Part shown: positions 25,953-39,762 of the stretch, piece by piece | Numbering within the stretch: position 1 is the stretch's first letter | Layout of the letters: every line of letters starts with the position of its first letter | Assembly: GCF_000600975.2 (NCBI RefSeq) | Contig: NZ_KK088653.1 | Location: 372,501 to 436,500 of the forward strand | DNA length: 64,000 nucleotides | Source of the DNA: Limimaricola hongkongensis DSM 17492 | GTDB lineage: Bacteria > Pseudomonadota > Alphaproteobacteria > Rhodobacterales > Rhodobacteraceae | Direction: 5' to 3' | Notes under the pieces: generated by a model | What the model was told of the DNA's origin: nothing | Database searches by the model: none | The model's input: the letters and a program-made list of their open reading frames with translations, nothing else | Translations under genes and position numbers: made by a program

Positions 25953-26576
25953 TCAGGTGGTGAGCAGCTTGCGGTACATCTCCAGCAGGAAAGCCTCGGC
26001 ATCGGCGAAGCGGTCCTTGGCCTTGTCCGGCGCGATCTCCTCGATCTGCACGTCGAAATCGGCGTAATGCTGCGTCGTGGCCCAGATCGAATAGAGCAGG
26101 TGGTGCGGATCGACGGGCGCGATGCGGCCCGCGCGGATCCACTCCTCCAGCACCGCGATCTTGGCGTTGTAGAGCTCCTTGAGCGGCTCGAAGATCTCGC
26201 TCTTGGACTGCGGCAGCCCGCTCAGGATCTCGTTGGCGAAGAACTTGCTTTCCTTGGGAAAGTTCTTGGAGATGTCGAGCTTGCGGCGAATGTATTCGCA
26301 GATTTCGTCAACCGGCTCGCCATTGGGGCTGAGCATGTTCAAAGGCGCCATCCACAGCTGCAGCGTCCGGGCCAGCAGCTCGCGCCGGATCGCGTCCTTG
26401 CTCTCGAAATAATAGAGCAGGTTCGGCGTGGTCAGCCCCGCCGCCTTGGCGATCAGGTTGATCGAGGCGCCGGACGAGCCGTGCTGGGCAAAGGCGTCGA
26501 GCGCCGCGCCGAGGATCTGTTCGGTGTTCTTGCGCTGGATCCGGGTCCGGGGCTTGGTGCCCGCCATGCGTGCCAT
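25953..26576 (-). CDS. RutR-like TetR-family regulator
   Basis: A 207-residue TetR protein. The N-terminal helix-turn-helix is INLIAKAAGLTTPNLLYYFESKDAI. The ligand domain closely follows E. coli RutR: EYIRRKLDISKNFP, FANEILSGLPQ and VDPHHLLYSIWATTQHYADF. RutR senses uracil/thymine and controls pyrimidine catabolism and transport. The gene lies 146 bp downstream of the F420-dependent oxidoreductase in the same direction, next to dihydropyrimidinase-pathway genes, so it probably regulates this locus in response to a pyrimidine or related ring. Start may be the second Met. Confidence 0.86.
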   Translation of the reverse strand: MARMAGTKPRTRIQRKNTEQILGAALDAFAQHGSSGASINLIAKAAGLTTPNLLYYFESKDAIRRELLARTLQLWMAPLNMLSPNGEPVDEICEYIRRKLDISKNFPKESKFFANEILSGLPQSKSEIFEPLKELYNAKIAVLEEWIRAGRIAPVDPHHLLYSIWATTQHYADFDVQIEEIAPDKAKDRFADAEAFLLEMYRKLLTT

Positions 26577-26722
26577 GAGCCGTCCAAGCCCCTCATACAG
26601 GTCAATGCCTGTGCCCTATCGCACACCTCCCGCGGCAAGACCAGCGGTCCCGCGCACGGGGGCGGTGTCGTTCCGGCGGGCAGGGCGGGCTGCCCGCCGG
26701 TCGGCGTCCGTGTCAGGGGGGC

Positions 26723-27763
26723 TTAGGACACGGCCTTCAGCTTGGTGACGTTGTTCGCTTCCTTGCGGAAGGCGGGGATCACCGTGTCGCCGTAATCGGC
26801 GATGATCTTCTCCTCGTCGCCGCTGTCGAGATAGATGTTGAACTGCGTGGTGCCCGCCTCTTCGAGTTCGCGGATCTTGGTGATGTGCTCCTCGGGCGTG
26901 CCCAGCACGCAGAAGCTCTTGATGATGTCCTCGGTGATGAAGTCGAGATACGGGTTATCGCTCTGGCCGTGCTTGGAGTAGTCGTAGCCCTTGCGGTTCT
27001 CGATATAGGAGGTGAGCGAGGAGGGCACCTGGTCGCTGTCGGCGCCGTATTTCTCGACGATGTCGGCGACGTGATTGCCGACCATGGCGGGGAACCATTT
27101 CACCTTCTCGATTGCCTCGTCGATCGGCCCGGTATGGGCGGGGGCGGCGGCCATGACCTTGTAACCCGACATGTCGAGCCCGGCCTCGGTCCCGGCGGTC
27201 TTGGCCTGGTCGGCCAGCCACTTGACGATCTTGGGCTCGGCGATCTGCAGCACCACGCCGTCGCCGACGCGGCCCGCGGAGGCCAGCGCCTTGGGGCCGT
27301 AGGCGCCGATCCAGACGGGCAGCTCGTAGCCGTCGGCCCAGGGGAACTTCACCGGCTCGGGGCATTCGCCGTACTGCACCTCCTCGCCGCGGATCAGCGC
27401 CTTCACCACATGGGTGAACTCCTCGAGACGCTTGAGCGTCGAGGGCTTTTTGCCCATGACGCGCACCGCGCTGTCGCCGCGCCCGAGGCCGATGTCGAAG
27501 CGGCCATTCGACTGCTTGGCGAGCGAGCCGAACAGCGAGGCCGCGACCGACCATTCGCGCGAGTTGGGGTTGGTCACAAGCGGGCCGAAGCGCATGCGTG
27601 TGGTGTGCTCCATGCACATCGCCATGGCGACGAAACTCTCGCGCCACAGGATGTGGCTGTCGTAGAACCAGCAATAGTCGAAGCCCGCGTTCTCGGCCTG
27701 GCGGACGAGAGCCTTGGCGCGTTCGGGCTCGACGAAGCCCTTGAAGCAGATGCCGAATTCCAT
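26723..27763 (-). CDS. F420-dependent LLM-class oxidoreductase (Mer-like, TIGR03842 type)
   Basis: A 346-residue luciferase-like TIM-barrel protein starting MEFGICFKGFVEPERAK behind GGGAGGAG. RFDIGLGRGDSAVRVMG and ELPVWIGAYGPKALASAGRVGDG resemble methylene-H4MPT reductase (Mer) and other F420-using LLM enzymes rather than FMNH2 monooxygenases such as RutA. It is the only LLM enzyme in the window and is encoded 41 bp after npdG in the F420 biosynthesis operon. As I recall, members of this family in proteobacteria have no assigned reaction. Context with dihydropyrimidinase suggests reduction of a pyrimidine-like ring with F420H2; this is inference. Confidence 0.85.
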   Translation of the reverse strand: MEFGICFKGFVEPERAKALVRQAENAGFDYCWFYDSHILWRESFVAMAMCMEHTTRMRFGPLVTNPNSREWSVAASLFGSLAKQSNGRFDIGLGRGDSAVRVMGKKPSTLKRLEEFTHVVKALIRGEEVQYGECPEPVKFPWADGYELPVWIGAYGPKALASAGRVGDGVVLQIAEPKIVKWLADQAKTAGTEAGLDMSGYKVMAAAPAHTGPIDEAIEKVKWFPAMVGNHVADIVEKYGADSDQVPSSLTSYIENRKGYDYSKHGQSDNPYLDFITEDIIKSFCVLGTPEEHITKIRELEEAGTTQFNIYLDSGDEEKIIADYGDTVIPAFRKEANNVTKLKAVS

Positions 27764-27804
27764 GTGATTTCTCCTCCCTAGAGAATGGATGGTGTTGTTT
27801 TTGG

Positions 27805-37850: not shown

Positions 37851-37903
37851 CCGGCAAGAAAAATAAAAGACGCCGGAAGACCAACAACAAGGAGGAGACG
37901 GAA

Positions 37904-39394
37904 ATGACGGATATCACTGCCGGGATCGCCGCGGCACGGGCGGGGGCGCAGGCGCGCCACGATACCGCCGGCATGGACCCGAGGCTCTATAACGAGGACC
38001 AGCTGCCGACCACGGCGGCCGAACGGACATGGAACTGGCTCGCCATCGCCGCGCTCTGGGTCGGCATGGTGGTCTGCATCCCGACCTATCTTCTGGCCTC
38101 CTACCTGATCAATTCCGGCATGAGCTGGGACCAGGCGGTGCTGACCATCCTCGCGGCCAACGCGATCGTGCTGATCCCGATGGTTCTTCTGGGCCATGCC
38201 GGGACGAAATACGGCATCCCGTTCCCGGTGCTGCTGCGCTCCTCCTTCGGTCCCACCGGCGCCAAGATCCCGGCCGTGGCGCGCGGCATCGTCGCCTGCG
38301 GCTGGTTCGGCATCCAGACATGGGTCGGCGGCTCGGCGATCTTCGTGATCCTCAACACGCTCACCGGGGGCGCTCTGGCCGGCGAGGCGCTGGCCTTTCT
38401 CGGGATCAGCCTCGGCGAATTCGTCTGCTTCCTCGCCTTCTGGGGCCTGCATCTCTACTTCATCACCCACGGCACGGAATCGATCCGCTGGCTTGAAACC
38501 TATGCCGCGCCGTTCCTCCTGGCGATGGGTCTCGCGCTTCTGGCATGGGCCTGGTTCGCCGCCGGTGGTTTCGGCCCGATGCTCTCCACGCCCAGCGCCT
38601 TCGACCCCGGTCAGCCCCGCGAGGGCGAGTTCTGGATGGCGTTCTGGCCGGGGCTTACGGGCATGATCGGCTACTGGGCGACGCTGGCGCTCAACATCCC
38701 CGACTTCACCCGCCACGCCAAGAGCCAGAAGGACCAGTTCCTCGGCCAGCTGATCGGCCTGCCGATCCCGATGGCGCTGTTCGCCTTCATCGCCTCGGCG
38801 GTGACCTCGGCGACGATCGTGATCTATGGCGAGGCGATCTGGGACCCGATCCAGCTGGCCGAGCGGATGGGCGGCGTCTCGATCGTCATCGCGCTCTTCG
38901 CGCTGATCGTGGCGACGCTGACCACCAACCTCGCGGCCAATGTCGTGGCCCCCTCGCACGGTTTCTCGAACCTCGCGCCGAGCAGGATCAACCTCAAGCG
39001 CGGCGGCTATATCACCGCCGGGATCGGGATCGCGATGTTCCCGTGGATCCTCGTCGACCATATCGGCGGCTGGCTGATCGCCTATTCGGCGCTTCTGGGT
39101 CCGATCGGCGGCGTGATGCTGGCGGACTACTACCTGCTGCGGAAAACCAGGCTGGAGGTGGCCGAGCTGTTCCGCATGGATGGCATCTATGCGGGCCGGG
39201 GCGGTGTCAACTGGGCCGGGATCGGCGCTCTGGTGATCGGCATCCTGCCGAACCTGCCGGGCTTTCTCGCGGGTGTCGGGCTGACGGCGGGCACCGCGCC
39301 GGTCTTCGCCACGATCTACACCTATGCGTGGTTCGTCGGGCTGTTCGTGGCGGGCGCGGCCTATCTCGTGCTCTCGAAGATCCTCAACAAGTGA
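37904..39394 (+). CDS. NCS1-family nucleobase/hydantoin transporter
   Basis: A 496-residue, about 12-segment NCS1 symporter. It has YNEDQLPTTAAERTWNW at the N-terminus, GIPFPVLLRSSFG, CGWFGIQTWVGG and LALNIPDFTRHAKSQ, all family hallmarks. NCS1 members import cytosine, uracil, allantoin, hydantoins or thiamine. Placed after dihydropyrimidinase, so a pyrimidine or hydantoin-like ring is the likely cargo. A GGAGGAG ribosome site precedes ATG 37904. Confidence 0.9.
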   Translation: MTDITAGIAAARAGAQARHDTAGMDPRLYNEDQLPTTAAERTWNWLAIAALWVGMVVCIPTYLLASYLINSGMSWDQAVLTILAANAIVLIPMVLLGHAGTKYGIPFPVLLRSSFGPTGAKIPAVARGIVACGWFGIQTWVGGSAIFVILNTLTGGALAGEALAFLGISLGEFVCFLAFWGLHLYFITHGTESIRWLETYAAPFLLAMGLALLAWAWFAAGGFGPMLSTPSAFDPGQPREGEFWMAFWPGLTGMIGYWATLALNIPDFTRHAKSQKDQFLGQLIGLPIPMALFAFIASAVTSATIVIYGEAIWDPIQLAERMGGVSIVIALFALIVATLTTNLAANVVAPSHGFSNLAPSRINLKRGGYITAGIGIAMFPWILVDHIGGWLIAYSALLGPIGGVMLADYYLLRKTRLEVAELFRMDGIYAGRGGVNWAGIGALVIGILPNLPGFLAGVGLTAGTAPVFATIYTYAWFVGLFVAGAAYLVLSKILNK

Positions 39395-39468
39395 CGCGAT
39401 GCGCGTGACGGGCCGGGGCGGCGGGTGTCGCCCCGGCCTTTTCATGTCCAGATGACGGAGACGACGAC

Positions 39469-39762
39469 ATGCCCAAGGCCTATTGGATCGCCCATGTGAC
39501 GGTCACCGATCCCGATCCCTACAAACTTTACGCGACAGGCGCGACGCAGGCGTTCCGCGACCACGGCGCGCGGGTGCTGGCGCGCGGCGGCCGGATCGAG
39601 GCGCTGGAGGGCGAAAGCCACCCGCGCAACGTGGTGATCGAGTTCGATACGATGGAGGCCGCGCTCGCCTGCTACAACTCCGACGCCTATCAGGCGACCA
39701 AGCGCCACCGCGAAGGGGCGGGTATCGCCAACATCATGATCCTCGAAGGCGCGCCGGACTGA
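39469..39762 (+). CDS. DUF1330 small protein
   Basis: A 97-residue protein with the DUF1330 pattern AYWIAHVTVTDPDPYKLYA, HGARVLARGGRIEALEG, RNVVIEFDTMEAALACYNS and YQ. These ferredoxin-like dimeric proteins have no established general function. It ends the presumed NCS1 transcription unit and converges with pccR. Possibly binds or processes an intermediate of the pathway; this is a guess from location. Confidence 0.85.
   Translation: MPKAYWIAHVTVTDPDPYKLYATGATQAFRDHGARVLARGGRIEALEGESHPRNVVIEFDTMEAALACYNSDAYQATKRHREGAGIANIMILEGAPD

Follow-up and report, generated by a model that had tools for sequence, protein, structure and literature searches.

A luciferase-like F420-dependent oxidoreductase as a candidate dihydropyrimidine dehydrogenase in a pyrimidine catabolism locus of Limimaricola hongkongensis

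PreT/PreA (NF006183) is an NAD-dependent dihydropyrimidine dehydrogenase whose genes neighbour those of a carbamoylase, a dihydropyrimidinase and a RutR-like regulator. We report here on a locus in which the same neighbours, the same place in the pathway and, as we propose, the same reaction are associated with an unrelated protein. It lies in a stretch of 64,000 nucleotides of the genome of Limimaricola hongkongensis DSM 17492 (Rhodobacteraceae; NCBI RefSeq assembly GCF_000600975.2, contig NZ_KK088653.1, positions 372,501 to 436,500), hereafter the window, and encodes a luciferase-like oxidoreductase (LLM) together with the enzymes for synthesis of the deazaflavin coenzyme F420. Whereas PreT/PreA consists of DHO_dh and ferredoxin domains with an NAD(P)-binding partner, the LLM is a single luciferase-fold protein that would work with F420.

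RutA, a flavin-dependent uracil monooxygenase, works with flavin mononucleotide (FMN) and O2 and cleaves the ring by oxidation. It has a luciferase fold, as does the LLM, and binds uracil in it (6sgl); it is under the control of RutR (PMC10891134). A ferredoxin-dependent PydA (PydAc) was reported in Clostridia (PMC7332683); as in our proposal, the first Pyd step there draws on a different electron donor, but the enzyme keeps the PydA fold and its donor is ferredoxin. In the synthesis of uridyl peptide antibiotics, disruption of the gene for SSGG-03002/NpsU, a putative F420/FMN enzyme, shows that the uracil C5-C6 bond is not reduced without it (PMC10714638); this enzyme is biosynthetic, acts on a nucleoside peptide or its precursor and is likened to the LLM by reaction. 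Similarly, a putative F420-dependent LLM was proposed, from bioinformatics only, instead of YgfK or UacX in the breakdown of uric acid by Chloroflexota (PMC12507026), where an LLM would likewise replace a YgfK- or PydA-like reductase before an amidohydrolase, although the pathway is that of uric acid. LxmJ, a luciferase-like F420H2-dependent didehydroalanine reductase, reduces a C=C bond, as proposed for the LLM, its substrate being a lanthipeptide (PMC8498797). According to this 2021 review, no F420-dependent reductase or dehydrogenase of Proteobacteria had been studied experimentally, and Paracoccus denitrificans makes trace F420 (PMC8498797). No proposal of an F420-dependent pyrimidine reductase in catabolism was found among the matches listed in the open-licence PubMed Central literature, which does not cover subscription papers.

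We consider it highly probable that the LLM (26723..27763, minus strand) would reduce uracil or thymine with F420H2, because of its exclusion of PreA, its co-occurrence with pyrimidine and F420 genes, the structure of its operon, the ligand site of the linked repressors and the operators shared with dihydropyrimidinase loci. The products of cofG, H, D, C and E would supply F420 and NpdG would make F420H2 from NADPH; the LLM would then pass a hydride to C6 of uracil, and likely of thymine, giving the dihydropyrimidine that the divergently encoded dihydropyrimidinase and N-carbamoylase would open. The beta-alanine or 3-aminoisobutyrate so formed would be deaminated by the aminotransferase, uptake of the base would fall to the NCS1 carrier, and the RutR-type repressor would free the operon in the presence of a pyrimidine, F420 being made on demand for one reaction. 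We infer the substrate, the direction of hydride transfer, the regulation and the route in vivo from the comparisons given below.

The genes were identified with NCBIfam curated cut-offs, which the carbamoylase and the NCS1 carrier pass at subfamily level. On the minus strand stand the two FO synthase subunits cofG (32108..33250; 455.4 bits, cut-off 213.35) and cofH (30837..32111; 512.6 bits, cut-off 374.1), the transferase cofD (29884..30840; 266.5 bits, cut-off 257.45) and the guanylyltransferase cofC (29240..29887; 122.7 bits, cut-off 105) of F420 synthesis, the F420-0:glutamate ligase cofE (28470..29243; 233.6 bits, cut-off 180.65), the NADPH-dependent F420 reductase npdG (27805..28473; 192.6 bits, cut-off 149.8) and the LLM. 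Every junction from cofG through npdG is a 4-base overlap and, by coordinates, 41 bases separate npdG from the LLM, so that cofG to LLM are read as one operon; the gene of the RutR-type TetR repressor (25953..26576) follows 146 bases past the LLM on the same strand. Divergent from cofG, after 464 bases, the plus strand carries an AptA-type omega-aminotransferase (33715..35034; 748 bits, cut-off 500), which would act on beta-alanine or 3-aminoisobutyrate, an N-carbamoylase (35096..36346; hydantoinase/carbamoylase subfamily, 404.9 bits, cut-off 204), a dihydropyrimidinase (36351..37811; TIGR02033, 620.9 bits, cut-off 393.25) and an NCS1 nucleobase:cation symporter (37904..39394; NCS1 subfamily, 362 bits, cut-off 353.1). 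The nearest solved relative of the dihydropyrimidinase is itself a dihydropyrimidinase (3dc8), and the solved structures that score best with the carbamoylase, a candidate beta-ureidopropionase, are an N-carbamoyl-L-amino-acid hydrolase (8apz, 627.8 bits) and, almost level with it, an N-carbamoyl-beta-alanine amidohydrolase (8c46, 622.7 bits). All genes named here by a first-pass annotation made from the letters alone were recovered at their positions and on their strands, and it was right that this cluster lacks PreT/PreA. The terminator that it placed between the dihydropyrimidinase and carrier genes is probable: a hairpin with a T run (37815..37846, plus strand) is seen by eye, but an automatic scan did not flag it.

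The gene content of related genomes was surveyed in a family sample of 296 genomes from 295 genera, taking as absence of PreA no match at E 1e-60. The LLM was present in 12 of them, CofG in 13 and dihydropyrimidinase in 269; PreA scored over its cut-off in 246, matched weakly in 10 and had no match in 40. PreA over the cut-off was found in 3 of the 12 genomes with LLM vs 243 of the 284 without. Among the 40 PreA-less genomes, dihydropyrimidinase was retained by all nine LLM carriers, compared with 7 of the 31 others, and CofG accompanied the LLM in 12/12 genomes vs 1/284 without LLM. The expected association of LLM, cof genes and dihydropyrimidinase was borne out, and the expected absence of PreA applies to most LLM carriers of the family and not to the window genome. 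The ten genomes with a weak PreA match (E ~1e-83 to 1e-88, below the cut-off; G396, G497, G543, G583, G585, G600, G610, G630, G632 and G648), nine of which have dihydropyrimidinase, possibly hold another kind of pyrimidine reductase. In a class-wide sample the LLM is rare (over the cut-off in 8 of 387 genomes), and the statistics are therefore drawn from the family sample and from genomes picked for LLM presence. The sole family genome with CofG and without a TIGR03842 LLM (L131; G619:C1:2794000-2813999) carries a divergent npdG-cofE-cofD-cofG-cofH cluster with 39-50% identity, so that another use of F420 exists in the family.

Among the genomes picked for the LLM, PreA was searched in 56 handles, of which 49 stand for alpha- and gammaproteobacterial genomes with a named locus (50 of 80 named loci were submitted and L073 was left out). 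It was present in 11, namely three Limimaricola, Thalassovita, three Leisingera, Epibacterium, Tritonibacter, Ruegeria and Shimia, and those without it include Paracoccus denitrificans DSM 413, Pseudovibrio, Roseibium, Cohaesibacter, Marinomonas and SAR116 genomes. Dihydropyrimidinase and RutA were searched in 62 LLM-bearing handles with five same-genome pairs, at most 57 distinct genomes, six PreA-positive handles having been left out (G677, G678, G679, G682, G683 and G684). Dihydropyrimidinase exceeded its cut-off in 58 of the 62; RutA did so in a single distinct genome and matched more weakly in another three. DHO_dh proteins were counted in 42 genomes with LLM and without PreA and in nine without LLM; 34 of the 42 have exactly one, as expected for PyrD. 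P. denitrificans, which has the LLM and the cluster and no PreA or RutA match, shows PyrD and, at 52.5 bits, a single further weak match. In most of the LLM-bearing relatives examined no PreA was found, and there the LLM is the best candidate for the uracil reductase. On an LLM tree of 57 rows, built by a quick method, the PreA label needs three changes, and the Limimaricola-Thalassovita-Leisingera group stands beside PreA-less P. denitrificans (support 92), which would fit a late gain of the F420 set by bacteria already holding PreTA.

For the window genome, the premise that PreTA is missing fails. A full PreT/PreA set elsewhere in the genome, which the first-pass annotation had named as evidence against its own idea, does exist: a complete preT-preA-tetR-carbamoylase-dihydropyrimidinase-ABC (ATP-binding cassette) cluster lies on the same contig at ~266.8-275 kb, ~130 kb from the LLM. 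In this second pyrimidine locus (L003:10295-19952, or G000:C7 ~265.3-275 kb, with its aminotransferase gene), the aminotransferase gene is divergent from preT and preA, which are followed by the RutR-like, carbamoylase, dihydropyrimidinase and ABC transporter genes, and PreA scores 719.7 bits (NF006183, cut-off 335). The carbamoylases of the two loci are 71% identical, the dihydropyrimidinases 72.5%, the RutR-like proteins 49.5% and the aminotransferases 29%. The window genome thus carries the pathway genes twice, once with PreTA and once with F420 and the LLM; RutA gave no match in it at E 1e-60. As the PreTA locus is complete, the LLM would be a second route here, not the sole one. The idea of F420 synthesis for pyrimidine reduction, as first put forward, is strongly supported by the comparative patterns and is not required by this genome.

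The presence of two routes raises the question of whether the LLM reduces another ring feeding dihydropyrimidinase, such as a substituted pyrimidine, a hydantoin-like or a purine-derived compound, with PreTA handling uracil where present. Two dihydropyrimidinases were found in 7 of the 8 searched handles with both PreA and LLM, as would suit different substrates; among solved structures the window's NCS1 carrier is closest to the hydantoin permease Mhp1, and the LLM proposed in Chloroflexota is meant for yanthine (PMC12507026). We nevertheless hold this explanation to be unlikely, since it does not account for dihydropyrimidinase being kept without a uracil reductase in the LLM carriers examined, most of them PreA-less, and since the uracil site of RutR is conserved in the linked repressors.

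As to its family, the LLM matches TIGR03842 with 503.9 bits over profile positions 1-329 (cut-off 295.45). This type of protein forms a large family: of 7999 scored candidates, 6834 are related at E 1e-30. Glu6 of Mer, the F420-dependent methylenetetrahydromethanopterin reductase, has a catalytic role and is mutated to Gln in the Mer structure 8qq8. At the matching position all 44 alignment rows and all 98 LLM translations have C, T or A; the LLM was rejected as Mer (TIGR03555, 128.9 bits vs a cut-off of 348.7), and no methanopterin gene is among those identified in the window locus. The RutA model (TIGR03612) is not among the profile matches of the LLM at E up to 0.001, and NF006183 and DHO_dh-type models are absent from its 22 matched families, so that it is no member of PreA/PydA. 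The other four LLM-fold proteins of the window genome are best matched by monooxygenase models or others not labelled F420-dependent, in a search that did not extend to split-barrel F420 enzymes. Arrays of two or three TIGR03842-type genes, ~49-56% identical to the window LLM, occur in one other alphaproteobacterial family (L112:9693-12837, L114 and L115), where they adjoin npdG or cofE and cofD and where some genes are cut by contig ends.

One database entry names a homologue (P0086) as an F420-reducing dehydrogenase, in which case the LLM would be Fgd-like and would itself provide F420H2 for some other enzyme. This is scarcely credible: against the Fgd model (TIGR03554) the LLM reaches 20.9 bits vs a cut-off of 420 and was rejected as such. 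Moreover, npdG is lacking in 8 of 80 named LLM loci, of which L091 shows the LLM alone, and the other seven, which have the cof genes, each encode in addition to the LLM a protein that exceeds the Fgd cut-off (474.8 to 498.3 bits). NpdG is here swapped for Fgd while the TIGR03842 LLM stays, which makes the LLM the probable consumer of F420H2.

Concerning regulation, the window repressor scores below cut-off against both RutR models (201.2 bits for TIGR03613, cut-off 368; 169.5 bits for NF011584, cut-off 230), and the solved structures related to it at E 1e-10 are all RutR entries. In E. coli RutR, uracil is contacted by W77, W167 and Q171, by Y97 through a water, and by Q179 from the partner monomer (PMC10891134). 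The window repressor keeps all five contacts as W75, W165, Y95, Q169 and Q177 in its own numbering, and so do 48 of 48 RutR-type proteins (the window's, that of the PreTA locus and 46/46 from named LLM loci), at identities down to 31%. The initial description of the regulator as RutR-like is therefore sound as regards its nearest relatives and its uracil site, short of the RutR equivalog cut-offs.

Operators were searched with the pattern TTGACCANNTGGTCAA, which we take to be the RutR box, in the 240 bases upstream of the tblastn start of cofG, no mapped promoter being used. Boxes with at most 3 mismatches occurred in 42 of 64 such regions, where shuffles gave 0.55 and 44 of 1260 random windows had one, and boxes with at most one mismatch in 9, compared with 0.0 in shuffles and 1 of 1260, near copies from one genus inflating these counts. 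All 7 Roseibium-type loci also had a box in the 400 bases before the LLM, and a box was found in 12 of the 14 dihydropyrimidinase loci examined in LLM-bearing genomes, 11 of these 12 being unlinked to the LLM; all 12 genomes have a box at the cof or LLM promoter too. The operator of RutR is described as a palindrome of ~16 bases (PMC10891134). The E. coli rutA-rutR interval itself has 3 mismatches to the consensus used, and an inverted-repeat search of it yielded nothing. In the window a good box was rejected, the interval between cofG and the aminotransferase gene having none with at most 3 mismatches and the four window matches lying elsewhere. Two candidate operators with 4 mismatches each remain there, one upstream of cofG (33306..33321), weak if taken alone, and one at 33400..33415. 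At about the distance of the first, sites with 3 mismatches are found in L014, from Limimaricola pyoseonensis, and in L019, and at that of the second near-identical sites, also with 4 mismatches, are found in L015-L018. An inverted repeat at 33289-33319 was dropped as an operator, as it was shared by none of the 47 other upstream regions scanned.

The neighbourhoods of 80 named LLM loci include cof genes in 77, npdG in 72, a RutR-like gene in 45, a carbamoylase in 33, an NCS1 gene in 23 and a dihydropyrimidinase in 21; preA or preT was found in none of the 80. The arrangements vary: divergent as in the window, colinear with the LLM followed by the carbamoylase and mostly then by the dihydropyrimidinase (L035, L044, L055, L092, L118, L119 and L125), or with dihydropyrimidinase and ABC genes upstream of cofG (L038, L041, L054 and L075). 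In two Marinomonas genomes examined further (L104 and L105), the dihydropyrimidinase stands just past the flank that was surveyed. Ten genomes with LLM and without PreA have a canonical ABC-dihydropyrimidinase-carbamoylase-RutR locus devoid of preTA, with the LLM elsewhere (L094, L095, L097, L098, L100-L103, L123 and L129), and preTA is present in the canonical loci L099 and L108. The record JAHVJD010000013.1 (L026), titled Nocardioides marinus, bears a Leisingera-like cluster with an LLM at 89% identity, and its name looks wrong, its LLM position being that in G589, a genome of the family to which the window belongs. The aminotransferase was rejected as an obligate partner, since it occurs in 8 of the 80 loci. 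Its divergent position in the window, together with an F420-dependent alcohol dehydrogenase of the same fold (1rhc), would suit an LLM acting downstream, for example by reducing malonate semialdehyde or methylmalonate semialdehyde from the aminotransferase; this is extremely improbable, as the aminotransferase is so seldom found, even if many loci are cut short, and as such a role does not predict the exclusion of PreA.

Several observations weigh against the LLM as a uracil or thymine reductase. Only 36 of 80 loci, or 27 of the 45 with full flanks, have a carbamoylase or dihydropyrimidinase gene inside 10 kb. Seven family genomes without PreA and LLM still have dihydropyrimidinase (G476, G517, G524, G539, G579, G645 and G656), with one DHO_dh protein each. 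Conversely, four of the 62 LLM-bearing handles, from three distinct genomes (G215=G708, G718 and G723), have no dihydropyrimidinase over the cut-off, and RutA-like matches below the cut-off occur in G215, G696 and G702. Three genomes with the LLM and without PreA (G687, G716 and G722) have a second full-length DHO_dh protein. Because three changes of the PreA label suffice on the LLM tree, genomes cannot be counted as independent and p-values are too small. Upstream of the LLM, L118, L119, L120 and L125 have no RutR-like box with at most 3 mismatches, the window's own two boxes fit poorly, SSGG-03002 yielded no product in vitro (PMC10714638), and PreTA leaves no gap to fill in the window genome.

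Part of these observations would suit an incidental linkage, in which the F420-LLM operon serves some other redox reaction and travels with the pyrimidine cluster: neither carbamoylase nor dihydropyrimidinase was found within 10 kb in 44 of 80 loci, and three distinct LLM genomes lack dihydropyrimidinase over the cut-off. On the contrary, the 12 genomes with a boxed dihydropyrimidinase locus, unlinked in 11, also have a boxed cof or LLM promoter, and the gene-content pattern is independent of linkage, which makes a mere association highly improbable. For the reduction of a pyrimidine by the LLM with F420H2 from NpdG, as the first-pass annotation had imagined it, the exclusion of PreA, the co-occurrence of dihydropyrimidinase and CofG, the uracil-type repressors and operators, and the exchange of NpdG for Fgd speak in favour, and the PreTA locus of this genome against.

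Two further features adjoin the locus. A RamB-like regulator, below its cut-off, is divergent from genes for the beta and alpha subunits of an acyl-CoA carboxylase (window:39781-44846), probably a propionyl-CoA carboxylase, which could serve the use of propionyl-CoA from thymine breakdown. On the other side, a rhodanese-domain protein and a YeeE/YedE-like membrane protein, both named by eye, adjoin the RutR-like gene (window:23609-25676).

Extended to the family as a whole, it is likely that TIGR03842 would represent a single-domain F420H2-dependent dihydropyrimidine dehydrogenase, free of flavin and iron-sulfur clusters, which takes the place of PreTA in several alpha- and gammaproteobacterial lineages and in which F420 serves, and is induced through RutR-type repressors with, pyrimidine catabolism. 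If this is true, a reaction would be assigned to a large enzyme family, and uracil reduction would have arisen more than once, with flavin and iron-sulfur on the one hand and with a deazaflavin on the other. F420 would then have a physiological role in Proteobacteria, and the absence of PreA in most LLM-bearing relatives would explain why they synthesize it.

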